Source of the DNA: Bacteroidota bacterium
GTDB lineage: Bacteria; Bacteroidota; Ignavibacteria; Kryptoniales; JAKASW01
Direction of reading: 5' to 3'
Length of the DNA: 64,000 bases
NCBI GenBank assembly: GCA_021825585.1
Contig: JAKAGT010000025.1
Coordinates: forward strand, 1 to 64,000
Part shown: one piece after another, positions 624 to 28,111 of the stretch
Layout of the letters: each line of letters starts with the position of its first letter
How positions within the stretch are numbered: position 1 is the first letter of the stretch
Position numbers and translations under genes: made by a program
The notes under the pieces: generated by a model
Told to the model about the DNA's origin: nothing
The model's input: only the letters and a program-made list of their open reading frames with translations
Database searches by the model: none

Positions 624-1409
624 ATGTCATTAATCGAAATAGAAAACGTAAGCAAGGTTTACACCATCGGCGACACATCGACACACGCGTTGAGAGCGGT
701 TTCGCTGCAAATCGACGAGGGAGAATTCGTGACCGTGATGGGACCTTCGGGGTCAGGGAAGAGCACATTTCTCACAATTGTCGGCGGCTTGAGTGCACCG
801 ACGAGCGGACGGGTGGTCATAGATGGAATTGACATCTACTCTTTGCGCCGGGACAGATTGTCGGATCTTCGCAGGGAGTATGTTGGCTTCGTGTTCCAGT
901 CTTTTAATCTCGTCCCCTACCTGAACGTGCTCGAAAACGTTCTTCTTCCACTGGCTCCCACGGGATTGCCGCCCAAGCAACAGGCATCTGTAGCTGAGGA
1001 TCTTTTGACTGAAGTTGGGCTCTACGATAAAGCTAAACATCTTCCGGGAGAACTCAGCGGCGGCGAGCAGCAGCGTGTCGCAATCGCCCGTGCGCTTGTA
1101 AATGATCCGCTGATACTTCTGGCTGATGAGCCGACCGGCAACTTGGACACCGCAACCAGCGAATCGATTATGCAGCTCTTCAGACTTCTGAACGAACGCG
1201 GGAAAACAATTCTAATGGTGACCCACAACCCCGGGTATAGATCCTATTCAACACGGACAATCGAGTTTTGTGACGGGACGCTTGTGGACGACGATGCGAA
1301 ATATGTGCAACAGACAACGCAAAAGGCGGCGGATGATCTGGCACGGGCACAGTTTGAACAATCTCACCGCCATTCTGTGCGATCGGCGGAAGAAATATTG
1401 AGGAGATAA
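624..1409 (+). CDS. ABC transporter ATP-binding protein (MacB/LolD type)
   Basis: A complete 261-residue ATPase. It has Walker A 'GPSGSGKST' near residue 41, a Q-loop 'FVFQSFNLVPYLNVLENV', signature 'LSGGEQQRVAIARAL', Walker B 'LILLADEPTGNLD' and the H-loop 'VTHN'. The pattern is that of MacB/LolD ATPases that partner FtsX permeases, and the permease gene ends 9 bp upstream. A charged C-terminal extension of about 35 residues goes beyond the usual ~225-residue length. The start has the upstream sequence 'aaggaaagg'. The sigma-factor gene follows after 5 bp, so exporter and sigma factor are very likely co-transcribed. Confidence 0.93.
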   Translation: MSLIEIENVSKVYTIGDTSTHALRAVSLQIDEGEFVTVMGPSGSGKSTFLTIVGGLSAPTSGRVVIDGIDIYSLRRDRLSDLRREYVGFVFQSFNLVPYLNVLENVLLPLAPTGLPPKQQASVAEDLLTEVGLYDKAKHLPGELSGGEQQRVAIARALVNDPLILLADEPTGNLDTATSESIMQLFRLLNERGKTILMVTHNPGYRSYSTRTIEFCDGTLVDDDAKYVQQTTQKAADDLARAQFEQSHRHSVRSAEEILRR

Positions 1410-1414
1410 TCGCC

Positions 1415-1942
1415 ATGACAACTGTCGAAGAACAACTGGCCACCAGCCGCGCGAAATTTTTAGGCTACATCCGCAAGAGAATTGCTGACCCGGGCCTCGC
1501 TGAGGATATCCTCCAGGACTCCTTTCTTAAGGCAATTCGATCAGCGCCTCAGATTGGAGACGATGAAGAGCTTGTACGATGGTTCTACCGGGTCCTGCAG
1601 AACGCGATAATCGACGCCTACAGGCGAAAAGCAGCCGAGCTGAACCGCAGGATGAATTGCTTCGCCGACGCGGATGTTGCCGTTGAACCGGAAGAACAAG
1701 AGGAAATCTGCGGATGCATGAAGGAGCTTATTCCCACGTTGAAACCGGAGTATGCCGATGTGGTGAAAGCAATCGACATAGATGGAGAGGACGCTGAAGT
1801 GGTGTCCACTCGTCTTGGAATTTCCCGCAACAATCTCAAGGTGAGGTCCCATCGTGCGAGACAGGCACTTCGTAAGCGTCTTGAGGAAACATGCCGAATG
1901 TGCGCAGAACATCATTGTCTGGATTGCTCATGCAAGAAATGA
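1415..1942 (+). CDS. ECF sigma factor with cysteine-rich C-terminus, CorE-like
   Basis: A 175-residue sigma-70 family protein. Region 2 is at residues ~10-75 ('AEDILQDSFLKAI', 'FYRVLQNAIIDAYRR') and region 4 at ~105-155 ('TRLGISRNNLKVRSHRARQALRK'). A C-x-C pair (C99, C101) sits in the linker between them, and the protein ends in a cysteine-rich tail with C160, C163, C168, C171 and C173 plus two histidines. In the CorE group (ECF44, known from Myxococcus) a linker C-x-C and a C-terminal cysteine-rich domain bind metal and replace an anti-sigma factor. The same layout here, directly before a large metal-handling cluster, suggests that this sigma factor senses copper or another soft metal and drives the downstream genes. 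The function is inferred; the motifs are seen. Confidence 0.85.
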   Translation: MTTVEEQLATSRAKFLGYIRKRIADPGLAEDILQDSFLKAIRSAPQIGDDEELVRWFYRVLQNAIIDAYRRKAAELNRRMNCFADADVAVEPEEQEEICGCMKELIPTLKPEYADVVKAIDIDGEDAEVVSTRLGISRNNLKVRSHRARQALRKRLEETCRMCAEHHCLDCSCKK

Positions 1943-2065: not shown

Positions 2066-2296
2066 ATGATGAACAAGATGAAAAGCTCCACAGGGACACG
2101 ATGTCCCGTATGTGGAATGGGAATCGACGAAAAGTCAGCAAAGAAAGTCGAGTATAATGGCCAGACTTACTTCGTCGCGTCGGATGGCTGTAAAGCGCGT
2201 TTCCAAGCTGATCCTGCCAGGTACGCAGGGAAGGCTGCTGAATCAGGCTCAACATCGACTCACGGCCACCACGACGGTGGACACGGATGCTGCTGA
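2066..2296 (+). CDS. Small YHS-domain metal-binding protein
   Basis: A 76-residue soluble protein with a YHS/TRASH-type domain at ~11-55 ('CPVCGMGIDEKSA...VEYNGQTYFVASDGCKARF'). The C-terminus is rich in metal ligands ('THGHHDGGHGCC'). The start is supported by 'aaaggagat' upstream; either of two adjacent ATG codons could be used. YHS domains bind soft metals through their cysteines and are common in copper, mercury and silver resistance loci. Here the second C-x2-C is reduced to a single Cys in 'SDGCK', with a terminal Cys pair that could compensate. Probably a cytoplasmic metal buffer or chaperone. Confidence 0.85.
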   Translation: MMNKMKSSTGTRCPVCGMGIDEKSAKKVEYNGQTYFVASDGCKARFQADPARYAGKAAESGSTSTHGHHDGGHGCC

Positions 2297-2428: not shown

Positions 2429-2701
2429 ATGAACCCGATTAAACCGCGGCCAGTAGCTTGGGCACTCGGAAGTTTCCTTGCCATCTCATTTGTGCTCTGC
2501 GTTCTGTGGGACCTGATATTTCCGAAAGGATGGCAAATGTATCCGGCATGGCAATCACTTCTGCCGGGCTTCACGTGGATTAGTTGGAAAGATTTCTTCC
2601 TCGGATTCTTCGAGTCATTCCTCTACGGCTTCTACGCGAGCTACGCGTTTATCCTGCTCTACAACCTGTTTGCCCGGTCGGCTCACGATACACAGGCATG
2701 A
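2429..2701 (+). CDS. Small inner-membrane protein, DUF5676-like
   Basis: A 90-residue protein starting at an ATG with 'agaaaggagaataagg' upstream. It has two predicted membrane helices: residues ~9-28 ('AWALGSFLAISFVLCVLWDL') and ~53-80 ('FFLGFFESFLYGFYASYAFILLYNLF'). The short periplasmic segment between them contains 'YPAWQSLLPGFTWISW'. Length and the pattern 'P...G..W......G...SF.YGF......LYN' match the DUF5676 family, found next to heavy-metal transport genes. The molecular role of that family is not known. Confidence 0.65.
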   Translation: MNPIKPRPVAWALGSFLAISFVLCVLWDLIFPKGWQMYPAWQSLLPGFTWISWKDFFLGFFESFLYGFYASYAFILLYNLFARSAHDTQA

Positions 2702-2757: not shown

Positions 2758-3099
2758 ATGGACACCAATGAAATAGTAAAAAGATGTGCTATCTGTGGAA
2801 TGCAAGCTAATCCCGAACTCCAACGTGAGCTTGAAGGTGAGACCTACTATTTCCACACCGGCCTTTGCATGATCACATTCGAAATTCAACTCGAAAGAAT
2901 AATTGCCGAACGGGACCGGCTTCTCGAAGAATCGCGCAGGTCGTTAGGACTCAGCAAGTTTCATGGCAAGTCTCAACTGAATGAAGCCGTGATTGCTGAA
3001 CGCAACCATGCGCTTGAGTGCGCGTGTAAGCCGCTGAATCAATATGACACTTATGACAATTTTCAGCTGAACAATGGAGGTTACAATGATAATGCCTAG
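2758..3099 (+). CDS. YHS/TRASH-like protein with helical C-terminus
   Basis: A 113-residue protein. The first ~50 residues follow the YHS pattern ('CAICGMQANPELQRELEGETYYFHTGLCMITFE'), with one C-x2-C and a single downstream Cys. A charged helical segment follows (~45-80), then 'ECACKP', another possible metal site. The gene starts right after 'agaaagtgaaagtat', and its end overlaps the next gene by 14 bp, indicating translational coupling. Unlike its neighbours in the family it has a long C-terminal extension whose function is not recognisable. Confidence 0.7.
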   Translation: MDTNEIVKRCAICGMQANPELQRELEGETYYFHTGLCMITFEIQLERIIAERDRLLEESRRSLGLSKFHGKSQLNEAVIAERNHALECACKPLNQYDTYDNFQLNNGGYNDNA

Positions 3100-3466
3100 C
3101 ACAATTGCCGCTCTAATCGGAATTCCTCTTGCAATTTCTCTTTACTACTGGTTCTGGCAAGCAATGGAAAAGAGAGAGCACGCGGAATTGGAAAGGATCC
3201 GCATCCATGAAGCTAATATTATAGTAGATCATGGTTACACCCCTGACGTGATCACCGCGAAAGCGGGAAGGCTCCTGCAGGTGAACTTCCTCCGGAAGGA
3301 CCTGTCTTACTGTGATGAAGAGATTCTCTTTCCCGATTTCAATAAGAGGATAAGACTACCTCACTATGCGGTTGTCTCTACAGAGATAATGCTGGAGAAG
3401 CCGGGCGAATACACTTTCCAGTGCGGGAAGGGGAAGCTGAAAGGCAAACTGGTGGTGGAGGAGTAG
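3086..3466 (+). CDS. Membrane-anchored cupredoxin-like protein lacking the Met ligands
   Basis: About 126 residues. The start ATG at 3086 was chosen because 'ggagg' lies 5 bp upstream. One N-terminal membrane helix (~6-24) is followed by a cupredoxin-like beta domain: 'GYTPDVITAKAGRLLQVNF', 'LSYCDEEILFPDFNKRI', and finally 'GEYTFQCGKGKLKGKLVV'. In this small family the last motif normally reads CGMGM-x-x-G, giving Cys and Met copper ligands, and the paralogue at 14221 keeps it. Here both Met are Lys, so copper binding is probably altered or lost. The protein is probably exposed to the periplasm. Confidence 0.8.
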   Translation: MIMPSTIAALIGIPLAISLYYWFWQAMEKREHAELERIRIHEANIIVDHGYTPDVITAKAGRLLQVNFLRKDLSYCDEEILFPDFNKRIRLPHYAVVSTEIMLEKPGEYTFQCGKGKLKGKLVVEE

Positions 3467-3604: not shown

Positions 3605-3946
3605 ATGAAAGAGATAAAAGCGTACATCAGGCCAGAGAGAGCGGACACAGTGATTTCGCATCTCGAGGCAATAGGCATCAATGGAATGACGGTCATCGAC
3701 GTATCTTTGCTCGGGAGCTGGGCGGATAAGAAGGAATTGAACATCTCCATGGAGTACTGCCAGAGGTACAGCAAGGCCGTTAAGATTGAGCTTATATGCT
3801 CCGATGACCTTGCCGACATCGTGGTCGGCTCAATCCTCGACCACGCTCACAGCGGTCAGCCGGGCGATGGGAAAATATTCGTCACAAACGTCGAAGACGC
3901 CGTCAGCATCCGCACAAAAATGCACGGCATCGACGCACTTGCATGA
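3605..3946 (+). CDS. P-II-like signalling protein
   Basis: A 113-residue protein with the P-II fold signature: N-terminal 'MKEIKAYIRPERADTVISHLE' and the nucleotide-binding B-loop near residues 82-92, 'SGQPGDGKIFV'. The T-loop region is short and lacks the usual uridylylated tyrosine motif, so it is not a standard GlnB/GlnK. P-II variants next to metal transport genes are known (the PII-NG group) and are thought to control transporters in response to nucleotides or ligands. The start at 3605 follows 'aaaggagaggatcct'. An earlier in-frame GTG at 3587 overlaps that ribosome site and is less likely. It lies between two membrane-protein genes of the metal cluster. Confidence 0.85.
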   Translation: MKEIKAYIRPERADTVISHLEAIGINGMTVIDVSLLGSWADKKELNISMEYCQRYSKAVKIELICSDDLADIVVGSILDHAHSGQPGDGKIFVTNVEDAVSIRTKMHGIDALA

Positions 3947-8043: not shown

Positions 8044-8184
8044 ATGAACCGATGTTCGGTATGCAATAAGAAATTGAACAAGGACAAAACCTGCGCAAAA
8101 GTCAATTTCAATGGAGAAGTATATTTTGTCTGCTACCTTTTGTGCCAGAGCGAATTTGGAGATTCAGCTGAAAGGATATCTTAA
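8044..8184 (+). CDS. Very small YHS/TRASH protein
   Basis: A 46-residue protein starting one base after the previous stop, with 'acggaggattgaa' as ribosome site. It carries C-x2-C ('CSVCNKKLNKDKT') and a second cysteine pair in 'YFVCYLLCQSEFG', the layout of a minimal TRASH/YHS zinc-finger-like metal site. The next gene begins 4 bp later. It is probably a metal sensor or chaperone module made as a separate subunit. Confidence 0.75.
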   Translation: MNRCSVCNKKLNKDKTCAKVNFNGEVYFVCYLLCQSEFGDSAERIS

Positions 8185-8894: not shown

Positions 8895-9101
8895 ATGTTA
8901 AGCGAAGCGAAATCCCGTCCTGCGGGAACACACGACCCGGTATGCGGAATGCAGATCGATGAGAAAAAAACGACTGCGAAGAGTGAGTACCAGGGTACCA
9001 CTTATTACTTCTGCTCACCTTCATGCAAGGCTGCTTTCGACAAAGAACCGTCGAAGTATGCAAAGCCGAAGGAGAGCGGAGAACATCAACATCATCACTG
9101 A
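8895..9101 (+). CDS. Small YHS-domain protein with His-rich tail
   Basis: A 68-residue protein containing a canonical YHS domain: '[20 protein letters not shown]' followed by '[17 protein letters not shown]'. It ends in 'EHQHHH'. The start follows 'gaaaggagataaaaa'. It closely resembles the N-terminal YHS module of the copper ATPase at 11493, so the two may derive from one another. Likely role: soft-metal binding and delivery. Confidence 0.88.
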
Positions 9102-11402: not shown

Positions 11403-11492
11403 AAAATGTGTAATGAAATAGCACCGGCTGCGTTATGAAAGTCGAAGTATGTTTATAGGCCTAAGTACAATCTAAACAAGGAGAAATTGGAA

Positions 11493-14201
11493 ATGCCAAA
11501 AGATCTAGTATGTGGTATGCCGGTCGAGGAAACAACCGAATTCCAATCAGAACGAAATGGAACTAAGTTCTTTTTCTGCTCACCGGCCTGCAAAGGGAAG
11601 TTTGATCAAAACCCCGGACAATATCTTGCGCCGACAAAGGAAGGAGCGGAATCGATTTCAAATTCAAACGTGCCAGCTTCTCATCACGCCGCTTCGAGTG
11701 TGGACAAATCAAGCCACGAGACTGCGCAGGTTCAAATCCCAATCATAAACATGGATTGCGCTAACTGTGCGCTCACGATTGAGAAACAAATTAAACAGTT
11801 GGTCGGGGTGAAGAAAGTCAATGTCAATATTGCCACCGCAAAGGCTTTTGTCGAGTACCAGCCCGGTGTTACAAACTCTCAGCAGATTGTCGGTGCAATA
11901 AAGAAGGCAGGTTACAAAGCGGGTCAAAGCTCGCTCACGCTCAAGATCGGCGGCATGTATTGCGGTTCCTGCGTTACGAAAATTGAAAACGATCTCCTTA
12001 AGAAACCTGGAGTTGTCTCCGCAAGTGTCGATCTTGCGAGTGAAATTGCGATGGTGCAGTACATACCCTCCGAGGTGAACATCTCGGAACTTACAAAGTC
12101 TATAGAGTCTCTCGGCTACACGGTCCGTGACGGGGCCGGCAGCGAAAAGGCTGAAGCGGCAAAGGAAGGCGAAACGAGAGATGAGACTGAGATTGCACAT
12201 GAACAGGAATACAAAAAGCTCATGCGGAAATTCATTTTCGCTGCTGTTGTCTCCGTTCCCGTTGTATTCTTCAGTTATCCCGATCTTTTTGGAATTTCAA
12301 ATCTGATGCGAATGGGAACCACAAGTGCGGAACTGATCATGATTTCCATGGCAGTCGTCACGCTTATTGTTATGTTTTATTCGGGCGCACAGTTTTTTAC
12401 GGGGGCAGTCGCCGCATTCAAGAGCCGGTCGGCAAATATGAACACGCTTGTTGCGACCGGTGAAGCTGCCGCATGGCTTTATTCGACAGTGGCATTTCTG
12501 TTCCCGTCAGCATTTCCCTCACGACAGCTCGCCGGGCAGTTCTATGACGTTGTTGCAGTCGTCACGGCGCTTGTCATTCTCGGTCTTGCTCTCGAAGTGC
12601 GAGCGAAAGGAAAAAGCTCAGAGGCAATAAAGAAGCTCATCGGTTTGCAGGCCAAAACCGCACGTGTTATCCGGGATGGAGCCGAGAGAGATATTCCCTT
12701 CGAAGAAGTTATAGTCGGTGATACCGTAATAGTCCGCCCCGGTGAGAAGGTCCCGGTCGATGGTGTCGTGGTGGATGGCGCGTCAAGCGTTGATGAATCA
12801 ATGATTACCGGGGAGCCGATCGCTGTCGAGAAGCGGTCGGGCGACGAGGTCATCGGCGGCACGATAAACAAGACGGGGTCATTCAAGTTTAAGGCCACAA
12901 AAGTCGGCAAGGATACTGCGCTTGCACAGATTATCGGGATGGTACAGCAGGCACAAAGCTCGAAAGCGCCGATACAGCGGGTTGTTGACCAGATATCGGG
13001 CTACTTTGCTCCTGCCGTCATGATCCTCGGTGTCTTGTCATTTATAATATGGTACGACTTCGGTCCACAACCGAGCCTTGTTTTTGCATTGATCGTCCTC
13101 GTTACTACTTTGGTTATTGCCTGCCCGTGCGCGCTGGGAATCGCAACGCCGATTTCACTGATGGTCGGCGTTGGCAAAGGCGCTGAGAATGGAATATTGA
13201 TTCGCAGCGGTGCAGCGTTGGAAACGGCTCAGAAGCTCAACACAATCGTTCTCGACAAGACCGGAACGATTACAAAAGGAAAACCGGCTTTGACTGACGT
13301 TATTGCCGTGAACGGCTTTGATGAAAACGAACTGCTTGGATTGTCTGCTTCCGTCGAGAAGGCATCCGAACATCCACTCGCCGAAGCGATTGTGAACGGC
13401 GCTGTCGAACGAAAGGTGCGGATAATCGACACAGAGTCTTTCAATGCAATTCCCGGGAAGGGTGTCGAAGCAAAGGTCGAGGGTAAGCATGTACTTCTTG
13501 GCAACTCCAAACTGATGAAAGATATGGCAATTGAAATCGGAGCGTCCGAAGAAAAGAGCAGCCAGCTTGCTGAAGATGGAAAGACCCCGATGTACGTCGC
13601 CGTTGACAAACGCTTTGCCGGAATTGTTGCGGTGGCAGACACAGTTAAGGAAGATTCGAAAAGCGCCGTGGCACAGCTTCAGAAGATGGGATTGGAAGTT
13701 GTGATGATAACAGGCGATAATGAGCGCACCGCAAAGGCAATTGCACGACAGGTTGGAATTACGAGAGTGTTTGCCGACGTCCTCCCTGAAGACAAGGCAC
13801 ACAATGTTCAGAAGATTCAGATGGAGGGGAAGAAGGTGGCGATGGTCGGCGACGGCATAAACGATGCCCCTGCTCTTGCTCAGGCAGATATCGGCCTCGC
13901 AATAGGCACCGGAACAGACGTCGCAATCGAAGCCTCCGATATTACGCTGATAAAGGGCAATCTCGGTGGTGTAGTCGCGGCAATCGATATTTCCAGAGCT
14001 ACTATGAAGAATGTCAAGCAGAACCTGTTCGGCGCATTTTTCTACAATACGCTCGGACTGCCGGTTGCAATGGGCGCTCTGTACCCGTTCTTCGGAATTC
14101 TGCTCTCGCCGATCATAGCCGGAGCGGCGATGGCGTTCAGCTCCGTCACCGTTGTCACAAATGCGAACCGGCTCCGCGCATATAAAATGAAAACATCATA
14201 A
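11493..14201 (+). CDS. copA: Copper-translocating P1B-type ATPase (CopA) with YHS and two HMA domains
   Basis: A 902-residue pump. Order of parts: YHS module (~1-47, 'VCGM...[12 protein letters not shown]'); linker; HMA domain 1 with CANC at 89-92; HMA domain 2 with CGSC at 157-160; eight membrane helices. The phosphatase motif is TGE, the membrane copper site CPC ('[11 protein letters not shown]') near 543, the phosphorylation motif 'DKTGT' near 588, the HP motif 'SEHPLAEAI' and the hinge '[16 protein letters not shown]'. CPC with HMA domains marks the Cu(I)-exporting P1B-1 group. The ATG at 11493 was chosen; a TTG two codons earlier overlaps the ribosome site. The YHS fusion may receive copper from the free YHS proteins encoded upstream. 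Confidence 0.96.
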
Positions 14202-14635: not shown

Positions 14636-15118
14636 ATGAAATCCAATTCAATTCATCCTGGCAGACTTGTGTTACTAACCCTGATCTTCACTGCAACCGC
14701 CTCATATGCCCAGGGCATGATGGGAGGGAGCTCGCAGAGCATGGGTAACATGCAACACATGCAGCAGATGAACAACACGCAGAACATGACCTCCATGTCG
14801 GATATGATGCAGCATATGCATGTCATGACGAATGAGCTCTCCGGAATGATGAAGCAAATGAACGGTATGAAAGGGATGAGCGGAATGGAGGGGATGGATC
14901 AACAAATGGCTATGATGGAGCAGATGAAGAAGTTAGGAACGAATATGGAATCGCTACTGGAGCAAATGAACAAGACGATGGGCGACAAATCGATGATGGC
15001 CGACCCCAAAATGAAGGATCAGATGACGCAGATGCAAATGCACATGGGCTCACTGGTGAATGATTACCACGAGATGATGCAAAACCTGAAGAAAGAACAG
15101 AACGGCGGCGGGAAATAG
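14636..15118 (+). CDS. Secreted methionine-rich protein, probable copper buffer
   Basis: A 160-residue protein with a signal peptide ending at 'ATASYAQ'. The mature part is extremely rich in Met, Gln, His and Asn ('MQHMQQMNNTQNMTSM') with repeated M-x-x-M patterns and helical heptads, and no recognisable enzyme domain. Such Met-rich periplasmic proteins bind Cu(I). The start follows 'aaaggagaaagaaa'. It lies 37 bp after the cupredoxin gene, and a hairpin follows the stop codon, so it probably ends the transcription unit. Confidence 0.8.
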   Translation: MKSNSIHPGRLVLLTLIFTATASYAQGMMGGSSQSMGNMQHMQQMNNTQNMTSMSDMMQHMHVMTNELSGMMKQMNGMKGMSGMEGMDQQMAMMEQMKKLGTNMESLLEQMNKTMGDKSMMADPKMKDQMTQMQMHMGSLVNDYHEMMQNLKKEQNGGGK

Positions 15119-15136
15119 TCGTGTCTTTGAAACCAC

Positions 15137-15172
15137 ATGAGACACCGAGAAGAAGTCCTCTCTGTGTCTCAT
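15137..15172 (+). terminator. Hairpin downstream of the Met-rich protein gene
   Basis: Arms atgagacac (15137-15145) and gtgtctcat (15164-15172), with further pairing gaga/tctc inside. It lies just after the stop at 15118. No strong T-run follows, so termination may be partial. Confidence 0.5.
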
Positions 15173-15211
15173 TGGTTATGTCTGAAGTGAAATACCTATA
15201 GGTGAAAGGTG

Positions 15212-16129
15212 ATGAAAAATCGAATGAGGTTGTCTGCTAGTGCGGCCATAACGTTGGGCAGCCGGAACTGGAAAATTGAGTTGATAATTCTATCTGTCTG
15301 GCTGTTGTTTCCCGCCGCATCTGTTCAAGCGCAGGGCAATTGGTATGCAACCGGATACGTTCAGTACTCTCAAGGTGATTACATATTCGGCAGCAACACC
15401 TCGACCTTCTACCTGGTGCCCGGTCTCAGGTACGAAGCGAACGGCTGGAGCGCGTCGGCGATCCTTCCGGTCGTTTCTCAGAACAACAATTTCGTTACGG
15501 GGGCCGGCGGGATGCTGCTGCCGCACGGCGGTTCGAATATGAACATGTCCTCCGGCGGCGGGGGCATGATGGGAGGTACCGGCAGCTCTTCGATGGGAAC
15601 TATGGCAAACATCGTCGGATTAGGAGACTTGTTTCTGACCGGAGAGTATGATCTCATTCGTCCGGACTTGGACCAGTCGACAGGAAGTTTCGGACCAGAG
15701 GGAAATTCCCCGGCGATCGGCATAGACGTTCAGATGAAAGTTCCCACTGCAAGTACGGCAGACAACTTCGGTACAGGCAAATTTGACTTCGGAGGCTCGC
15801 TCAATTACCGGCAACTATTCGGTGCTTACGTCTTAATGGCTAATGCCGGTTACCTGGTTTTGGGTAAGCCATCTGGAGTCGATTTCAGGAACCCGTTCTC
15901 TTATGGAGGCGGAATTGGAAGGTTTTTCAGTAACGGAGATTTCTCTGTCGCTGTCATGTATCAGGGATATACAACTATACTTTCCGGCTATCCGCCGCCC
16001 AACCAGGCGTCACTCGGCCTGAACTGCAAAACAAGCTCCAGTATGATATGGACGATACTTCTCTCGAAGGGCCTTACCGACACTGCGCCATCGTTTGGCT
16101 TAACCGGCGGATTCCGATGGAGCCTATGA
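15212..16129 (+). CDS. Putative outer-membrane beta-barrel protein
   Basis: About 305 residues with an N-terminal membrane signal ('LIILSVWLLFPAASVQA') and then alternating beta-strand sequence ending in 'FGLTGGFRWSL', the aromatic C-terminus of an outer-membrane barrel. A Gly/Met/Ser-rich loop ('MNMSSGGGGMMGGTGSSSMG') may bind metal. It resembles the 'transporter' proteins of the MetA-like barrel family that accompany metal efflux systems. The signal peptide is long, with an extra N-terminal stretch; ATG 15212 is preferred over GTG 15209 after 'ggtgaaaggt'. Substrate unknown. Confidence 0.7.
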   Translation: MKNRMRLSASAAITLGSRNWKIELIILSVWLLFPAASVQAQGNWYATGYVQYSQGDYIFGSNTSTFYLVPGLRYEANGWSASAILPVVSQNNNFVTGAGGMLLPHGGSNMNMSSGGGGMMGGTGSSSMGTMANIVGLGDLFLTGEYDLIRPDLDQSTGSFGPEGNSPAIGIDVQMKVPTASTADNFGTGKFDFGGSLNYRQLFGAYVLMANAGYLVLGKPSGVDFRNPFSYGGGIGRFFSNGDFSVAVMYQGYTTILSGYPPPNQASLGLNCKTSSSMIWTILLSKGLTDTAPSFGLTGGFRWSL

Positions 16130-16190
16130 TCGCGGTCCTTATCAAGGTTTCTTCTGAATTTGACAAGGTTGACAGCATGAAAGAAGAACC

Positions 16191-16409
16191 ATGAGACACG
16201 AAATCGTAACATCCGCCACACTCACATGTCCCAATTGCGGTTACAAAGAGACTTTGGAGATGCCTACAAATGCCTGTCAGCATTTCTATCGTTGTAAAGC
16301 TTGTAACGTTGTAATGAAGGCGAAGCCCGGTGTCTGCTGCGTCTTTTGCTCGTATGCGGACGTGAAGTGTCCCCCAAAGCAATTAGAGGAAGCGGGAGGG
16401 GTTTCGTGA
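16191..16409 (+). CDS. GDCCVxC-type small cysteine-rich protein
   Basis: A 72-residue protein with two zinc-ribbon-like pairs ('CPNCGYKE', 'CKAC') and the family motif 'PGVCCVFCSYADVKCPPKQ'. This family, named for its GDCCVxC motif, is found with mercury and copper resistance genes (Gly-Asp is Gly-Val here). Ten cysteines in all suggest metal or sulfur chemistry in the cytoplasm. Function is not established. Confidence 0.85.
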   Translation: MRHEIVTSATLTCPNCGYKETLEMPTNACQHFYRCKACNVVMKAKPGVCCVFCSYADVKCPPKQLEEAGGVS

Positions 16410-16478
16410 GTCCCAAGCGCAACTAAACTGACGTTTCTATTCCAAGTGCTGAATGTTCGTGAGACCGGAGGAAAGAAA

Positions 16479-16895
16479 ACGAAATATCTGAATCTCGCTG
16501 TCTTACTGGCTTTCATGGTCGGGCAGGTTCAGTATGCCTGCGTTTCATATTTCTGTACCATGACGCATAGGCCGGTAAGTACTCCCGCGAAGTCAACGAA
16601 CTCGAAAGCTACTTCGTGCGAAGACTTCTGCAGCTGCTCTCGAAGAATCACCCTGCGGCATTACGGACTGCGGTTGGTCGAGAATAATTGTATCAAAGTT
16701 GTTGATTCTAAGAAGAGTGTGGTAACCAGTTTCACGGATTCAGCCAAATTGATCGGCCATTTTGTGACGGTTCTTGGTTTTATTCCAGCTCTCAATGGTC
16801 ATCAATCGACAATCGGCAATCAGCTGTTTGCTACCAACAACGCTGCCTCTCCTCCACCAGGTTTACACATCCTCAACTGTAACCTCCGCATTTAA
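16479..16895 (+). CDS. Secreted cysteine-rich hypothetical protein, possible ACG start
   Basis: Not a recognised family. The frame is open from GTG 16446, but a ribosome site ggagg at 16467-16471 sits 7 bp before ACG at 16479. From there the protein reads (M)KYLNLAVLLAFMVGQVQYAC, a good signal peptide or lipoprotein-like leader; no ATG, GTG or TTG suits the ribosome site. The next in-frame ATG (16515) would cut the leader. The mature part has cysteines in 'CVSYFCTM' and 'CEDFCSCS' and a conserved-looking 'HYGLRLVENNC'. Probably periplasmic; it belongs with the copper genes by position. Start choice is an inference. Confidence 0.6.
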   Translation, partial: TKYLNLAVLLAFMVGQVQYACVSYFCTMTHRPVSTPAKSTNSKATSCEDFCSCSRRITLRHYGLRLVENNCIKVVDSKKSVVTSFTDSAKLIGHFVTVLGFIPALNGHQSTIGNQLFATNNAASPPPGLHILNCNLRI

Positions 16896-17018
16896 TCCGC
16901 TCTTCGATGTTCCCGTCATTTACTGAAGTGTAGAGATTCCGGACTTGAGGTCCGAAAATCTAAGGCACGCGATTAATACTGTTGACGCAAAATAAGAAAT
17001 CATGGAAGGATAAAGATC

Positions 17019-18494
17019 ATGTATAACTTTGACAATCCCTTTGTCCGGCGAACGGCGCTTTTGGCATCCATTGCCGTTGCGTTGGCGCTCGCTGTTCCAC
17101 GAACGGCAAAAGCAATCCCAAGCTATTCCCGTCAGACTGGACTGAGCTGCGCAACCTGTCATACCGTTTTTCCGCATCTCACACCGTTCGGCAGGGACTT
17201 CAAACTTCACGGCTATGTCAGCAACAATACTCAGCTCATAAGTGACCATGCCTCCACAAGCGACACCGCCAGTCAGGGAAGGACAATCCTCGAATTCCCA
17301 GCCACGCCGATGGTTTCTGCCAGGATCTCTTCAAGGTGGAACTACCAACAGGGAGGCGGGAACGGACTTGTTCCCCATGGAGTTGTAACCGCTGGACAGG
17401 GTTTCATCTCCAGTCCTGATGGTTATGGAGACAAAGATCTGCTCGATTACCTTGCCGGGTCGAGCATTTACATAGCAGGCGAGATCACCCCGCGACTCGG
17501 AAGCTTCATTGAGTTCGGTGGACCCGATGACGAAGGCGGTACTGTCGGACTCGGAATGTTCGATGTAGCTCTCGTGTCCCCGGATGAGACTGTCGCAGGC
17601 CAGAACTTTGTTTACGGGATAAGGGCAGAAGATGCCCTGGCCGCCGGCGATCCTTCGAACACAATTGGAACCTGGGGCTTGACGGCAAGTCTTATGGGGC
17701 TCAGCACGCATAATACTCTCTTCGATCCGGGCACAGCCTTCATGGAAGGCGGAGAGCTTTTCGGAATGCTCGGCGATTTCGACGGCGGCGGGCTGTACGC
17801 GAGTGTGGGAGTCTACAGACCGACGGCAAATCAGACGGCGAACGGTTACGTGCAAGGCGCCATCTCAGGCTCTGGTACATTCGATGGCGTAAACGGTGTA
17901 AACAGTTATGTCAGAGTCTCGTACTATCTTCCTCCGATCGGCAAGAACACCTATACTGAGATTGGAGGATTCGGTTATTTCGGGAGACTCAATATGACCG
18001 CAAGTCAAGCCGCCGTGCTTGTCAATCCGGATTATATCGACAACTACTACAATTTGGGATTTGACTTCCAGGCTCAATATATTGGCAACAACAACCTTAT
18101 TGAACTTTTCGGCCTTCTCCAGTCTCAACGGGACGGCGCATTCTACGGTGTGGACGGCTTCACAGGACTTCCGGGCAATGGTATCGCCGTATCGAGACAG
18201 GGCTTCGGAGTGAAGGCTGATTATTATTACAATAGCCTGATTGGCACCTACGTGAAATATCTCTATCAGACATCCCGTCAGCTTAAGGACATGAATGTCA
18301 GCGGGGCGATCGTCGGTGTTGGCTGCTTTCCCTGGGAGAATGTCAACCTGAAACTCGAGAGGACATTCTTCTCGACATACAACATCGGTGCTGCGCAATA
18401 CGGAGCATACGTTCTTGCTGGCGCACCCAACCCAAGGTCTATTTCGGCGTCTGACTTTGACGTTACAGCGGTGAAACTGGAATACCTGTTCTGA
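17019..18494 (+). CDS. Outer-membrane protein with c-type haem motif
   Basis: A 491-residue protein with signal peptide ('TALLASIAVALALAVPRTAKA'), immediately followed by one haem motif CATCH in 'GLSCATCHTVFPHLTPFGRDF'. A long beta-rich part then ends in an aromatic residue ('KLEYLF'). Proteins of this build, with a haem leader and porin-like barrel, are known from metal-reducing and copper-resistant bacteria and may pass electrons across the outer membrane. The start follows 'atggaaggataaagatc'. A GC-rich hairpin follows the stop. Confidence 0.8.
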   Translation: MYNFDNPFVRRTALLASIAVALALAVPRTAKAIPSYSRQTGLSCATCHTVFPHLTPFGRDFKLHGYVSNNTQLISDHASTSDTASQGRTILEFPATPMVSARISSRWNYQQGGGNGLVPHGVVTAGQGFISSPDGYGDKDLLDYLAGSSIYIAGEITPRLGSFIEFGGPDDEGGTVGLGMFDVALVSPDETVAGQNFVYGIRAEDALAAGDPSNTIGTWGLTASLMGLSTHNTLFDPGTAFMEGGELFGMLGDFDGGGLYASVGVYRPTANQTANGYVQGAISGSGTFDGVNGVNSYVRVSYYLPPIGKNTYTEIGGFGYFGRLNMTASQAAVLVNPDYIDNYYNLGFDFQAQYIGNNNLIELFGLLQSQRDGAFYGVDGFTGLPGNGIAVSRQGFGVKADYYYNSLIGTYVKYLYQTSRQLKDMNVSGAIVGVGCFPWENVNLKLERTFFSTYNIGAAQYGAYVLAGAPNPRSISASDFDVTAVKLEYLF

Positions 18495-18509
18495 TTTCAA
18501 TGTCGATGT

Positions 18510-18539
18510 GTCGCGTCAGTGTCTCCGGCCTGACGCGAC
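18510..18539 (+). terminator. GC-rich hairpin after the haem-motif barrel gene
   Basis: Perfect 10-bp arms gtcgcgtcag (18510-18519) and ctgacgcgac (18530-18539) separated by 10 bp, 15 bp after the stop. There is no T-run, so it is either a weak terminator or a transcript-stabilising structure. The stretch 18540-18864 holds no supported gene. Confidence 0.6.
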
Positions 18540-18864
18540 GCAGCCTGACAGCCTGGTGTTCGTTTACCTCCAGAGTTCACAGACTTTTCTTCAAAACACC
18601 CATCCGGCAGCCGCGTTGTCCCGTAATGCCTCAAACGTCAACAAACTACCCCTCAAACGTAAGGCTCGCACCTCGAATTTCCCCCATCTTCGTTCCAATT
18701 GGCGGTTTTTGTCTTCCTTGATATCGGCATGAGGCTTGAGCATTTGCATGGAGATACGCCGGAACGTGACGGCATCCGGCTGATGACCGGAGTCTCTTTC
18801 ATTACGAAGGACAGGGATCCCGAACACGATTCGAATCTAAAATAGAAATTAGGAGAAGGGTCAA

Positions 18865-19743
18865 ATGAAGCATTCATATAGAACTTGTAGCACAGGGAAT
18901 TATATAGGCATGTTGGCGGTCGTACTTTTGATTCTTCCGCTATCGGCCTTCGCACAAATGAATTACAGCAACTGGGTTCAGCGGAACTCGACGGACACAA
19001 CAGTGGTAAAATGCTGGAACGATTCGTCCACCACTATGATGTTTGCCCCCGGCGCAATGGCAAGGATGATGATGAATATGCCGGATTCCATTTACTGTCG
19101 GATCGATGAGATGCCGATGGATAGTCTCGGTCTGTCGCATGATTCCACGTTCATCGGGTGGTATCGTGCGCAAATCGGAAAAGACTCTTTGAACTTCAAC
19201 TTTATGAGTTTTTCCGGGATGGGGAGCACTAACATGATGCAGTTCGGGAAAGGTATCGCGTGCCACCTTTATTGGGATAGCATCGCGGCGGATTCCATGT
19301 ACCGTCATTTTCATCCGACGGGAGTAATGGTCTGGAACGGCTCGAACTGGGTGAGCATTCAGGGTGCTTCCATCGACGACAACACTGTGTCTTTCACGAC
19401 ACCCGATGCGTATTCTGCAATTGCATTCGTCGGAGCGCCGGAGAAGACAACGGCAGTTAAAGATCATAGTGGCACACCGACAACTTTTTCTCTGCGCCAG
19501 AATTACCCGAACCCTTTCAATCCCACAACAGTCATCAGCTATCAGCTTCCGGCGGTCTCCCGTGTTACCCTGAAAGTGTACGATATTCTCGGCAATGAAG
19601 TCGCCACACTTGTCAACACCACTCAGCCTGCCGGTATTCATTCGGTCCAGTTCAGCGGTTCGGGCCTCGCTAGCGGTGTTTACTTCTATCGCCTGTCAAC
19701 GCCGGATTACGTGCGGACAATGAAGATGATTTTGCTTAAATAG
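18865..19743 (+). CDS. Secreted protein with type IX sorting domain
   Basis: A 292-residue protein with a signal peptide ending at 'LSAFAQ'. An Asn/Asp/Met-rich region (~30-190, including 'MMFAPGAMARMMMNMP') is followed by a C-terminal domain of ~80 residues: 'FSLRQNYPNPFNPTTVISYQ', 'KVYDILGNEVATLVN', 'GVYFYRL', 'KMILLK'. The latter is the Por/type IX secretion sorting domain typical of Ignavibacteria-like Bacteroidota. The Met-rich patches fit copper binding at the cell surface. The start follows 'attaggagaagggtcaa'. Probably the last gene of the metal cluster. Confidence 0.85.
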   Translation: MKHSYRTCSTGNYIGMLAVVLLILPLSAFAQMNYSNWVQRNSTDTTVVKCWNDSSTTMMFAPGAMARMMMNMPDSIYCRIDEMPMDSLGLSHDSTFIGWYRAQIGKDSLNFNFMSFSGMGSTNMMQFGKGIACHLYWDSIAADSMYRHFHPTGVMVWNGSNWVSIQGASIDDNTVSFTTPDAYSAIAFVGAPEKTTAVKDHSGTPTTFSLRQNYPNPFNPTTVISYQLPAVSRVTLKVYDILGNEVATLVNTTQPAGIHSVQFSGSGLASGVYFYRLSTPDYVRTMKMILLK

Positions 19744-20060: not shown

Positions 20061-20114
20061 GATTCAGGGTCTAGTGACCGCAAGGCCGTGCAGGTTCAAG
20101 TCCTGTCCCGGGCA
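20061..20114 (+). tRNA. 3' fragment of tRNA-Leu(CAG), putative att core
   Basis: The sequence from the anticodon loop (ttcaggg, anticodon CAG at 20065-20067) through a long variable arm (tgaccgcaaggccgtg), the T arm (gcagg-ttcaagt-cctgt) and the acceptor 3' strand cccgggc plus discriminator a. The long variable arm and CAG anticodon identify a leucine tRNA. The matching 5' half (expected to begin gcccggg) is absent upstream, so this is not a full gene. Its 3' end overlaps the end of the integrase gene, marking an integration site. Confidence 0.85.
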
Positions 20115-21238
20115 CTGTAATTTGAAGTGAATTCGCCGATTTGCTTCTTGGGTTCATCACTCTTATCGCCTTCATCACCCCGCAGTAACCGTATAGTAAC
20201 AACTGAGTCACGTCCGTTGAGTCGTGCGACAGCATTTTGCATCGTTTGTCTCTGCACCTTCGCATAGACCAGCGTTGTATTAATGTCTGAATGTCCGAGG
20301 ATCTTTGAGACTGTCAGCACATCCACGCCGAGTTCAATTAACCGAGTCGCGAAGGTATGTCTAAGGCTGTGGAGTTTGAACCCGACTAAACCTGCATCTT
20401 TGCACGTTTGGGTGAATGTCTTTGTGACGGAATTGTTTGAGAGTTCCGAGAATAACTTCTCGCCGACCGCAATCAATATCTCTCTAGCACGGTCTGTGAG
20501 GGGAACGTCACGGGCTTCCTTATCTTTTGTCTTTCGTAAATGGACTACTCCAGCCTCCAGGTCAACATCAGAAGCCTGTAGTTGCGTCCCTTCTTCTCTT
20601 CTTAATCCAGTGTTCAGGAGGAATTCGTAGAACTGTATATACCTCAGAATTCTGTCCCGGTGAGGCTTACGATTCGATTCTTCTCGATGCAATAGCAATG
20701 CATCAAAGAATCGTTTGATTTCAACATCTGTCATATAAAGCCGTTTCTCCTCCACCTTAAGCTTTCGAACATGGCTTATATGGTTCGATGAAATGTATCC
20801 CCAGCGAAGTGCGACGTTGAGAAAAGCTTTCAGCGTTCGAAGTTCCAGGTTGAACGTGACCGCTCGGATCTCCGTGAGGCGCCGTCTTTTCCATTCGTCA
20901 AGGTTCTGGGCATCAATCTGGCGCAGGTCTATATCTCCCATGCTTTTGATGAAGTTGTTCACGACAAAATGCTCAAGATCGATTGTGGTGGGCTGCTTAT
21001 AAGAGGACGCGAATTTGAAGTACTCTTCAGTGAAATGCCTCAGATTAATGTGCTTCTCCTGATACTCCTCCATTTTGAAAGTACCCCTCGCGATCTTGCC
21101 CTGAATATCGTGCAGGATTTGCTTGGCTAGTCGAAAATCGGCGGTTTGCGTGCTGATAACATGTCGCTTTTCCCGAAATGTAAAATCGATAACGTAGTGA
21201 TACCCATGTTGGGTCTTCCTCTTTCTAATGGTTGCCAT
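20096..21238 (-). CDS. int: Tyrosine recombinase / integrase
   Basis: A 380-residue site-specific recombinase. The N-terminal arm-binding region (1-60) is followed by a SAM-like core-binding domain (~65-165) and a catalytic domain with R213 ('TGLRREEGTQL'), K237 ('LRKTKDKEARDVPL'), H290/R293 ('HSLRHTFAT'), H316 ('LGHSD') and nucleophile Y325 ('TTLVYAK'). The start ATG (21238) has 'aaaggagcc' upstream. The last codons and the stop TGA are formed by the tRNA-Leu 3' end, so the C-terminus is encoded by the att core. It overlaps the excisionase-like gene by 14 bp. Confidence 0.95.
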   Translation of the reverse strand: MATIRKRKTQHGYHYVIDFTFREKRHVISTQTADFRLAKQILHDIQGKIARGTFKMEEYQEKHINLRHFTEEYFKFASSYKQPTTIDLEHFVVNNFIKSMGDIDLRQIDAQNLDEWKRRRLTEIRAVTFNLELRTLKAFLNVALRWGYISSNHISHVRKLKVEEKRLYMTDVEIKRFFDALLLHREESNRKPHRDRILRYIQFYEFLLNTGLRREEGTQLQASDVDLEAGVVHLRKTKDKEARDVPLTDRAREILIAVGEKLFSELSNNSVTKTFTQTCKDAGLVGFKLHSLRHTFATRLIELGVDVLTVSKILGHSDINTTLVYAKVQRQTMQNAVARLNGRDSVVTIRLLRGDEGDKSDEPKKQIGEFTSNYSARDRT

Positions 21239-21527
21239 CCGAGGCTCCTTTCTGTCTGTTCCAGATACTGTTCGCGGTTTCGTGAGCCTTTTCGGATGAA
21301 GGTACACCTTCGGCTGTCACAATCTTTTGGGAGATCCAGGCTTCCAAAGCAGGGAGGTGAAACAAATACCTGCCCTCAATCTGGAAGTACGGTATTCGCT
21401 TTTCCCGGATGAGCCGTCTGATAATGCTCTGTGAAACGCGCAGAAACTCAGCAGCTTCCGTAACCGTGAGTACAGTGGCTGTTGAATCCTGCATTCTTAT
21501 ACCGTTATTTGAAGTCTCGTTCTTCAT
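21225..21527 (-). CDS. Excisionase-like helix-turn-helix protein
   Basis: A 100-residue protein with a MerR/excisionase-family winged helix at ~17-68: 'VLTVTEAAEFLRVSQSIIRR' followed by 'LIREKRIPYFQIEGRYLFH'. Such proteins direct the recombinase toward excision and may repress nearby promoters. The gene overlaps the integrase start, so the two are translationally coupled in one transcript running toward the tRNA fragment. Confidence 0.85.
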   Translation of the reverse strand: MKNETSNNGIRMQDSTATVLTVTEAAEFLRVSQSIIRRLIREKRIPYFQIEGRYLFHLPALEAWISQKIVTAEGVPSSEKAHETANSIWNRQKGASDGNH

Positions 21528-25600: not shown

Positions 25601-25872
25601 AAACAGAATACACAACCAAGGATTTCTACCTTGCCTCGTTCCTGGTGGCCTCGGGCTTTAAACTCGACGGCTTCACAAGGTCGACGGAGGGAATAACTAC
25701 TTTTCAATTCACAGATAAAGACGATCTAAATACGTTCGTCAACGGATATTACGCCGACGTACTGACGGTATCCCCGATCAGGTATGGCAACGCGTTAAAG
25801 AACATGAAGGCAATCATAAGGAATACAAATACTAATGGAAACTATGTTAAACCAACAAGAAAGGGCAACTGA
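25597..25872 (+). CDS. DUF5659 domain protein
   Basis: A 91-residue protein: 'YTTKDFYLASFLVASGFKLD', 'GITTFQFTDKDDLNTFVNGYYAD' and 'VSPIRYGNALKNMKAII'. This is the pattern of DUF5659, a small family of phage and integrative-element proteins encoded next to replication genes. It overlaps the start of the primase-polymerase gene by 38 bp. Function not known. Confidence 0.75.
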   Translation: MKTEYTTKDFYLASFLVASGFKLDGFTRSTEGITTFQFTDKDDLNTFVNGYYADVLTVSPIRYGNALKNMKAIIRNTNTNGNYVKPTRKGN

Positions 25873-28111
25873 AGACCTTTTAACAAAAGAAGAGACGGAG
25901 TCTCTTTGCCAGGACGCATCAGCCGATGGCAAATTATCAATAAACGATCTTGGCATTCGGGAAGCCGCATTCAAATACTACCGGGCAGGCTTTCGTGTGC
26001 TACCAGTAAAACAGGATAAGACTCCTGCAACAGCTGCACCTTGGGGTTATCTGAAGGATCGACCCGCAACCGAGGAAGAGATGGAAAGCTGGTTCCCAGA
26101 AGGAACTACGAACCTGATCGCAGTTGTCTGCGGGATTCCGGAAGCTGGCAACCTGGAACCTCTCGACTTTGACGAGAAATACAACCTTGAGTCTCTCCCC
26201 CTAATTGAGCAATTCAAAGGACTTGTCGACCAACGCGAAAGCGGGCTTTTCGATAAGCTAGTGTCTGAAACCTCACAGAGCGGCGGATGGCATTTGCTAT
26301 ACAGCGTAAGCGGCGTCGTCGAAGGTAACCGGAAGCTTGCAACGAGGAACGCTACCGATGAAGAACTTGTCGCCGAGCCGAAGCTGAAGTACAAAACACT
26401 TGCGGAGACGCGCGGATTAGGCGGATATCTAGTGATTGCTCCATCAAAAGGCTACAAAGCCATTTCAGGCGATATCCTTAATTTGCCTGTTATTAGTCAT
26501 GAACAGCGCGAGATGCTGCTTGAATGTGCCAGGAAACTCGATTTGCATGTGGACGACGGCAAGGTTGCTGACGCCGCTACCGAAAAGGTAGTAGACGGAA
26601 AATCCGGGGTGCCACGCAAACCAAAACGGAACGTGCTTCTCCCCGGTGATGAATTTGATATGCGCGGAGACTACGCGACTTACCTGACTGATGCGGGCTG
26701 GGCACTCGTTTACACTGCCGAAAATGTCCAGTACTGGAGAAGACCGGGAAAGACGACCGGGATCAGCGCGACTTTTAATTACACTCCTAACAAGTTCCAC
26801 GTCTTTTCGAGCAATGCCGGGCCATTCGAACCGGAAACAAGCTACTCTCCATTTGCCGTCTACACTTACTTGGCCCATGACGGAGATTTCACCAAAGCTG
26901 CCACTGAGCTGAAGAACATGGGCTATGGTACTGATGAAAAGCTGGAGTATGCAGAACGCGTATTGGGACACCGGTACGAGTTCAAATACAACATCATAAA
27001 GGGAATCACCGAATACAGAAAAAGAGGGACTGCTGACGAGTTCATTGCTCTGACCGACAAAAAGGCGAACTCATTGTATAGAGAGCTTGTCCACATTGGG
27101 TGCACGTTGCCTAAAGACACACTGGACAGGCTGCTTGAAAGCGACTATGTACCTGATTACGATCCATTCATTGAGTACTTCGAAAAGATTACACCATGGG
27201 ACACGAAGACGGACCATATAAGGCGGCTTGCCGAGACGATTGCTCTGAAAGACCCAAAACAGTTTGACCGATGGCTGGATTCGTTGAGACGCTGGCTTGT
27301 GGCAACGGCTGCCTGCGCAACCGGACGAAAGACGAATCAAACGGTATTGACCTTACACGGACCCCAGGGCGGATATAAGACGACATGGCTTATGGGGCTT
27401 TTACCGACGAAGTTTAAGGCTATGAATCAGTATAGGATTTCGCGCGCTGTTAACCCTGACTCGAAAGATTCACAGATAAGTCTGGCTGAGAACTTCCTGA
27501 TTAACATAGATGAGCTTGATACCATGACACGGTTTGATGTAGGAAGTCTTAAATCTTTCATTACACAGGATTCGGTTGACGTCAGACGGCCGTATGGAAG
27601 GCGGCAGGAAAACCTTCCGAGACGCGCATCGATCGTTGCGAGCGTTAATAGAGATGACTTCCTGGTCGATGAAACAGGCAACCGAAGGTTCCTGATTTTC
27701 GACGTGGATAGCGTTCAATGGAATCACAACATTGATATGGATCTCGTTTACGCTCAGGCATACGCCCTGCTGAATCAGCCAGGTGGTTTCAAGTACTGGT
27801 TTGATGATAAGGAAATTACAGAGATAAACAAGATCAACAGCAGCTACCGCACAAAGTCGACGGAAGAGGAATTCATCGAAAAGGCATATAAAGTCGTAAG
27901 CAAAGAAGATTCAGGGCTGTTCGGTACAATCTGGGTATCGGCGGCCGACGTGGCTTCAACCCTGAATGAGCTTTACCATATTCCAATAAACACCCAGAAG
28001 GTGGGTAAGGCTATGACGGCTCTGGGATTTCAAAAGAAGAGCACCAATGCGGGAGCTCGATATGTGGTTCAGCAGAAACATTTTACCGGGCAAAGTCAGG
28101 TCCAGGCGTGA
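25835..28111 (+). CDS. Primase-polymerase / VapE-type helicase
   Basis: A 758-residue replication protein. The N-terminal AEP-like bifunctional primase-polymerase domain (~35-215) has 'YYRAGFRVLPVKQDKTPA', metal ligands in 'LDFDEKYN' and 'GGWHLLYS'. A middle linker leads to a VapE/D5-like superfamily 3 helicase part with Walker A 'HGPQGGYKTTW' (~508-518), Walker B 'FLINIDELDTM' and sensor region 'VASVNRDDFLVDETGNRRFL'. The C-terminal winged-helix part ends near the stop. Such proteins start replication of satellites and integrative elements from an adjacent iteron origin, which is found directly downstream. ATG 25835 or 25844 could be used. Confidence 0.9.
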   Translation: METMLNQQERATEDLLTKEETESLCQDASADGKLSINDLGIREAAFKYYRAGFRVLPVKQDKTPATAAPWGYLKDRPATEEEMESWFPEGTTNLIAVVCGIPEAGNLEPLDFDEKYNLESLPLIEQFKGLVDQRESGLFDKLVSETSQSGGWHLLYSVSGVVEGNRKLATRNATDEELVAEPKLKYKTLAETRGLGGYLVIAPSKGYKAISGDILNLPVISHEQREMLLECARKLDLHVDDGKVADAATEKVVDGKSGVPRKPKRNVLLPGDEFDMRGDYATYLTDAGWALVYTAENVQYWRRPGKTTGISATFNYTPNKFHVFSSNAGPFEPETSYSPFAVYTYLAHDGDFTKAATELKNMGYGTDEKLEYAERVLGHRYEFKYNIIKGITEYRKRGTADEFIALTDKKANSLYRELVHIGCTLPKDTLDRLLESDYVPDYDPFIEYFEKITPWDTKTDHIRRLAETIALKDPKQFDRWLDSLRRWLVATAACATGRKTNQTVLTLHGPQGGYKTTWLMGLLPTKFKAMNQYRISRAVNPDSKDSQISLAENFLINIDELDTMTRFDVGSLKSFITQDSVDVRRPYGRRQENLPRRASIVASVNRDDFLVDETGNRRFLIFDVDSVQWNHNIDMDLVYAQAYALLNQPGGFKYWFDDKEITEINKINSSYRTKSTEEEFIEKAYKVVSKEDSGLFGTIWVSAADVASTLNELYHIPINTQKVGKAMTALGFQKKSTNAGARYVVQQKHFTGQSQVQA

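Follow-up and report, generated by a model that had tools for sequence, protein, structure and literature searches.

The window analysed here, a 64,000-nt stretch that starts at base 1 of contig C65 in a 4.97-Mb draft genome of a Bacteroidota bacterium, carries an ECF sigma factor gene next to a long series of metal-related genes. The features needed for what follows are:

624–1409, forward strand: ABC ATPase gene (MacB/LolD-like), directly upstream of the sigma gene, from which a 5-nt gap separates it.
1415–1942, forward strand: gene of a putative CorE-type ECF sigma factor of 175 aa, with an ATG start; sigma2 at residues 16–73, sigma4 at residues 101–152.
1709–1717, forward strand: CxC motif, C99-G-C101, in the sigma2-sigma4 linker; invariant in 60/60 relatives.
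1892–1933, forward strand: cysteine-rich tail, C160-x2-C163-x4-C168-x2-C171-x-C173, with the spacing of CorE C181–C194 (PMC3107203).
2004–2029, forward strand: predicted promoter TGTAACC-N15-CGTC (as -35/-10, TGTAAC-N16-CGTC), between the sigma and YHS genes.
2066–2296, forward strand: YHS-domain protein, the first gene past the promoter (PF04945, 5.7e-15).
2429–2701, forward strand: DUF5676 protein with two TM segments.
2758–3099, forward strand: YHS-like protein, a weak match (PF04945, 0.017).
3074–3466, forward strand: cupredoxin-like protein (PF13473, 4.3e-14).
3605–3946, forward strand: P-II-like protein (PF00543, 1e-19).
8895–9101, forward strand: YHS-domain protein (PF04945, 1.2e-18).
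11409–11433, forward strand: second, weaker promoter-like site (TGTAA-N17-CGT) before copA, tentative.
11493–14201, forward strand: CopA-type P1B ATPase with a YHS domain, two HMA domains and a CPC motif (PF00122, 1e-61; PF00403; PF04945).

No genes are visible before an ABC permease in the window because the contig starts there. The sigma gene is the last gene of this upstream unit and probably shares one transcript with the ABC ATPase gene, while the metal genes begin beyond a 123-nt gap that bears the promoter. The first-pass annotation had described the sigma gene as heading a metal operon. The metal genes do adjoin it, but the gene ends the upstream ABC-ATPase unit and the metal genes start at a predicted promoter of their own.

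Pfam searches with the sigma factor returned Sigma70_r2 at residues 16–73 (4.6e-10) and Sigma70_r4_2 at residues 101–152 (2.8e-7), both above cut-off; sigma2 and sigma4 are its only domains, and the fold agrees with ECF sigma factors. Its cysteines, read from the translation, are C82, C99, C101, C160, C163, C168, C171 and C173. The linker C-x-C pair and the five-cysteine tail that the first-pass annotation had pointed out are thus exact, the tail residues being C160, C163, C168, C171 and C173. An AlphaFold2 model gave both sigma domains with good confidence and a disordered tail (pLDDT <50 at residues 167–175); because of this predicted disorder the metal site is not visible in the model, which we left aside for metal-site geometry. 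The disordered tail in the model might fit what is expected of the metal-free state.

The tail can be placed residue by residue on that of Myxococcus xanthus CorE, whose cysteines are C181, C184, C189, C192, C194 and C206. In the 21 founding proteins of the group positions 181, 184, 192 and 194 are invariant, and mutation of C181, C184, C189, C192 and C194 identified C189 as the main activation residue and C184 as required for inactivation (PMC3107203). Subtraction of 21 from these five published residue numbers yields 160, 163, 168, 171 and 173, all of which are present in the window protein. The linker CxC is essential for the activity of both CorE and CorE2 (PMC8999054). CorE2 carries an extra Cys174 that determines its Cd/Zn specificity, as quoted in PMC9023288; the matching residue in the window protein is Ala164. 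With C168 present and alanine at 164, the protein belongs by sequence to the CorE (copper) subtype, and the pattern would give a strong copper reading over the Cd/Zn (CorE2) type. The placement of CorE-type proteins in ECF classifications is disputed and the newest scheme (ECF238) handles them poorly (PMC8999054); this favours naming them by function instead of by group number.

A cysteine tail of this kind could also let metal inhibit the sigma factor. The iron-starvation sigma factor OrbS likewise senses metal through on-board tail cysteines, and Fe(II) switches it off through a C-terminal four-cysteine motif (PMC9023288). The OrbS motif, C-x2-C-x3-C-x5-C, is spaced differently and serves iron starvation, whereas the window spacing is that of CorE; moreover, the predicted target genes look like detoxification genes, which require activation by metal. 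We consider inhibition highly improbable, and the tail spacing led us to reject an OrbS-type iron sensor.

Relatives were gathered from genome contigs with a helix-turn-helix pattern free of cysteine, and the best 80 loci, which do not include M. xanthus CorE, were taken. The CxC plus tail pattern was found in 80/80 of them, though the search pattern held no cysteine. In the 60 aligned relatives C99, C101, C160, C163, C171 and C173 are always cysteine and C168 is kept in 55, while C82 occurs in one only. This conservation places the cysteine pattern of the window sigma factor beyond chance. A plasmid search also matched proteins of Phenylobacterium zucineum, Roseobacter litoralis and Roseovarius TM1035, three species that contribute proteins to the founding CorE-group list (PMC3107203). 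The two Roseovarius TM1035 genes lie one gene apart, like the locus tags of the listed pair, and from species and position we infer that the plasmid proteins are the exact entries of that list.

For the phylogenetic tree the CxC cysteines were masked and the tail was removed. Seventy-five CRD proteins, including four from founding-list species, split from 12 SigZ-like and other ECF proteins with an SH-aLRT of 97, a value to be read with care because of long outgroup branches and a quick tree search. The tree was built without M. xanthus CorE and CorE2 and rests on the other founding-list members; the cysteines that these proteins share support this grouping independently. The first-pass annotation had looked to a family tree to decide its assignment, and the Cys-masked tree puts the window protein in the CorE-like clade. 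There it lies within a subclade of 22 members that includes Calditrichota, Chloroflexota, Nitrospirota, Spirochaetota and KSB1 proteins, a mixture of phyla that suggests horizontal spread of these sequences.

The nearest named NCBIfam model is SigZ (TIGR02959), which shares the ECF fold, so the protein could be read as a SigZ-family sigma factor with a decorated tail. The best match scores 107.7 bits against a curated cut-off of 168.65 bits, however, and the SigZ-like plasmid proteins fall in the outgroup, outside the CRD clade, with a CC-type tail that lacks the CorE pattern. SigZ membership was rejected on the score, and we regard this reading as extremely improbable. One SigZ-like ECF protein, encoded in the ars operon of a Hafnia plasmid (L021, 2944–3489), has a cysteine-containing tail and may represent another self-sensing type of metal sigma factor.

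A further alternative is an ordinary ECF protein whose anti-sigma factor is encoded elsewhere and whose cysteines serve a structural purpose, such as forming a zinc knuckle. The linked genes were searched for anti-sigma domains. The window genes tested yielded none, nor did the genes preceding the sigma copies on contigs C74 and C88 of the same genome, nor the most frequent families in a set of 131 neighbour genes drawn from 28 relatives. The genes upstream of these C74 and C88 copies, which display the region where the first-pass annotation had allowed for an anti-sigma gene, encode RND efflux, CusB-like, DUF2231, zinc-ribbon, FtrD-like, ABC transporter and small membrane or lipoprotein-like proteins. 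Its statement that no anti-sigma gene is present thus holds for the window genes examined, the flanks of two further copies and the commonest neighbours of close relatives. Anti-sigma genes can be unlinked, and the tail was modelled with low confidence. Against this stand the lack of a linked anti-sigma gene at all three copies and among the common neighbours of relatives from many phyla, and the finding that over-expressed CorE titrated no anti-sigma factor (PMC3107203). An unlinked partner is, in our judgement, very unlikely.

Within the 123 nt that separate the sigma and YHS genes lies TGTAACCGCCCCCGACATGCAGCGTCATGGA at 2004–2034. The promoter is conserved at all three sigma copies of the source genome, and its blocks TGTAACCGC and TGCAGCGTCATGGA are identical in 6/6 sequences (the three copies and three related genomes), while the sequence around them diverges in the same alignment, most clearly in L040. 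Across the family, TGTAA-N16-18-CGT lies beside the sigma gene, within 300 nt and on the same strand, at 62/80 loci, compared with 26/2414 control pieces of 300 nt (1%) and 10/160 pieces on the opposite strand. With 66/160 near pieces entered, Fisher's test gave p of about 1e-64, which is no true probability, since related loci do not count as independent. When spaced word pairs were searched without bias at 17 Nitrospira loci, TGTAA/CGTC ranked first (14/17), just 3' of the sigma gene, and the same motif adjoins the R. litoralis gene and both genes of the Roseovarius TM1035 pair. Most close relatives carry it 3' of the sigma gene, ahead of a P-type ATPase gene, a YHS gene or some other gene, and a few carry it on the upstream side instead. 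Counted from AAC to the G in CGTC, the spacing is 17 in the window and 16–18 in CorE promoters. The shared -35/-10 motif that the first-pass annotation proposed to seek upstream of the metal genes is therefore found, at all three copies.

Most likely the window sigma factor reads the 2004–2029 promoter. The promoter class resembles that of unrelated ECF proteins such as Bacillus subtilis SigX, which recognises TGTAAC / CGWC (quoted in PMC12153292), and another ECF sigma factor could therefore read this site. A genome-wide scan of the source genome for TGTAACN15-17CGTC gave 21 matches, fewer than the 27 of the reversed control. Only the sites that follow the three sigma copies are convincing, and we claim no wider regulon in this genome because matches are no commoner than in the control. 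Consensus scans for sigma-70 promoters and terminators gave hits at shuffle level and were set aside.

Beyond the P-II-like gene, the series encodes an M50 peptidase-like protein, additional membrane proteins, a further YHS protein and DUF302, and then comes copA, for which we prefer the ATG start at 11493 to the TTG at 11487. Intergenic gaps in the series are at most 138 nt, so that one long transcription unit is possible, and transcription from the 2004–2029 promoter may reach copA. The site at 11409–11433 is called tentative because it is absent at the copA gene on C88. The ATPase has the C-terminal residues YN...MAFSSV..N, which we take to mark a Cu(I)/Ag(I) exporter (P1B-1 ATPases). The 131 neighbour genes of the relatives include 17 P-type ATPases, 7 YHS, 6 HMA and 5 cupredoxin proteins and 3 multicopper oxidases.

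Other genes of the region deserve mention in their own right. Several small proteins resemble YHS/TRASH metal-binding proteins (2758–3099, 8044–8184 and 8895–9101), some too divergent for Pfam cut-offs. The P-II-like protein inside the copper cluster is possibly a metal-linked P-II relative and not a nitrogen regulator. Met-rich and outer-membrane-like proteins, mostly without a Pfam match, follow copA at 14636–19743; a homologue of the protein at 17019–18494 is encoded on C88, following a TGTAACC..CGTC match (C88:33048).

A CorE-type mechanism could serve Zn/Cd or several soft metals in place of copper: CorE itself responds weakly to Cd and Zn (PMC3107203), and the CorE2 tail cysteines from Cys173 onward, except Cys174, are all common to the window protein (PMC9023288). 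Cys174, however, is replaced by Ala164, and the CopA-type CPC ATPase, the cupredoxin and the CusA/CusB-like RND genes at the other copies indicate copper. We hold a cognate metal other than copper to be rather unlikely.

The two further sigma copies of the draft genome lie at G000:C74:310-834 (97% identical) and G000:C88:43904-44428 (93% identical). With an estimated contamination of 4%, this genome may combine more than one strain, and the sigma and copper cluster copies on C74 (L013) and C88 (L012) may be true duplicates or a strain mixture. Ahead of one extra cluster stand CusA/CusB-like RND genes together with the same ABC transporter; ahead of the other stand RND genes and lipoprotein-like ones. 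The gene is present in 4/13 genomes of the organism's own genus. Just past the metal genes, on the reverse strand, lies a tyrosine recombinase gene (20099–21307; Phage_integrase, 7.3e-28), with a primase/VapE-like protein beyond it at 25835–28108, which suggests that the copper region is bordered by an integrated mobile element.

Taken together, the product of the window gene is very probably a CorE-type sigma factor (former ECF44) acting as a one-protein copper switch. This agrees with the CorE/ECF44 assignment of the first-pass annotation, given the CorE tail spacing, the CxC motif, the founding-list clade, the conserved ECF-type promoter and its position, the copper neighbours and the lack of a linked anti-sigma gene. 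Metal binding, activation by metal and copper as the metal are drawn by analogy from work on CorE and CorE2. The sigma factor would be produced along with the upstream transporter genes and be inactive without metal, as is apo-CorE even when over-produced (PMC3107203). Cytoplasmic copper would be bound by C160, C163, C168, C171 and C173 of the tail, probably assisted by C99 and C101 of the linker, and sigma2 and sigma4 would then adopt a conformation able to bind core RNA polymerase and the 2004–2029 promoter. Transcription of the series from YHS through DUF5676, cupredoxin and P-II-like genes to CopA would follow, with no part played by an anti-sigma factor.

CorE-type sigma factors studied so far number only two, both from one myxobacterium (PMC8999054). 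Our data depict the CxC-plus-tail type as a coherent family over many phyla with a predicted promoter, from which regulons could be predicted by sequence search. The type itself is known; what is new is its promoter signature, shared across the family, and its distribution over many phyla. We think it reasonably probable that a CorE-type sigma factor, a TGTAA(C/T)-N~17-CGT promoter and a metal exporter form a compact, widely exchanged cassette with one family-wide promoter code, many examples lacking autoregulation, and that this same cassette spans Bacteroidota, Calditrichota, Chloroflexota, Nitrospirota, Spirochaetota, Verrucomicrobiota, Planctomycetota, Bdellovibrionota and Pseudomonadota. 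As a compact metal sensor of a single protein and a 30-bp promoter, it should be testable in E. coli.

Among known systems the closest is M. xanthus CorE, formerly ECF44 and unclassified in the newest scheme. Like the window protein, it is a two-domain ECF sigma factor with a linker CxC and the identical C-x2-C-x4-C-x2-C-x-C spacing, has no linked anti-sigma gene, adjoins copper exporter genes and uses an AAC...G promoter with a spacing of 16–18. In contrast to CorE, the window protein has a shorter tail with no counterpart to the final CorE cysteine, C206, its gene ends an upstream transporter unit with the promoter downstream, and its host belongs to the Bacteroidota. CorE2 of M. xanthus and the CorE2-type proteins of Roseovarius and R. 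litoralis share the CxC, the conserved tail cysteines and the lack of an anti-sigma factor, but carry an extra cysteine beside the second tail cysteine where the window protein has Ala164. The founding-list proteins of the P. zucineum plasmid and Roseovarius TM1035 belong to the same clade and have the CxC and the four invariant tail cysteines; they differ from the window protein in sequence (35–38% identity), in a Phe in place of C168 and in an N-terminal extension.
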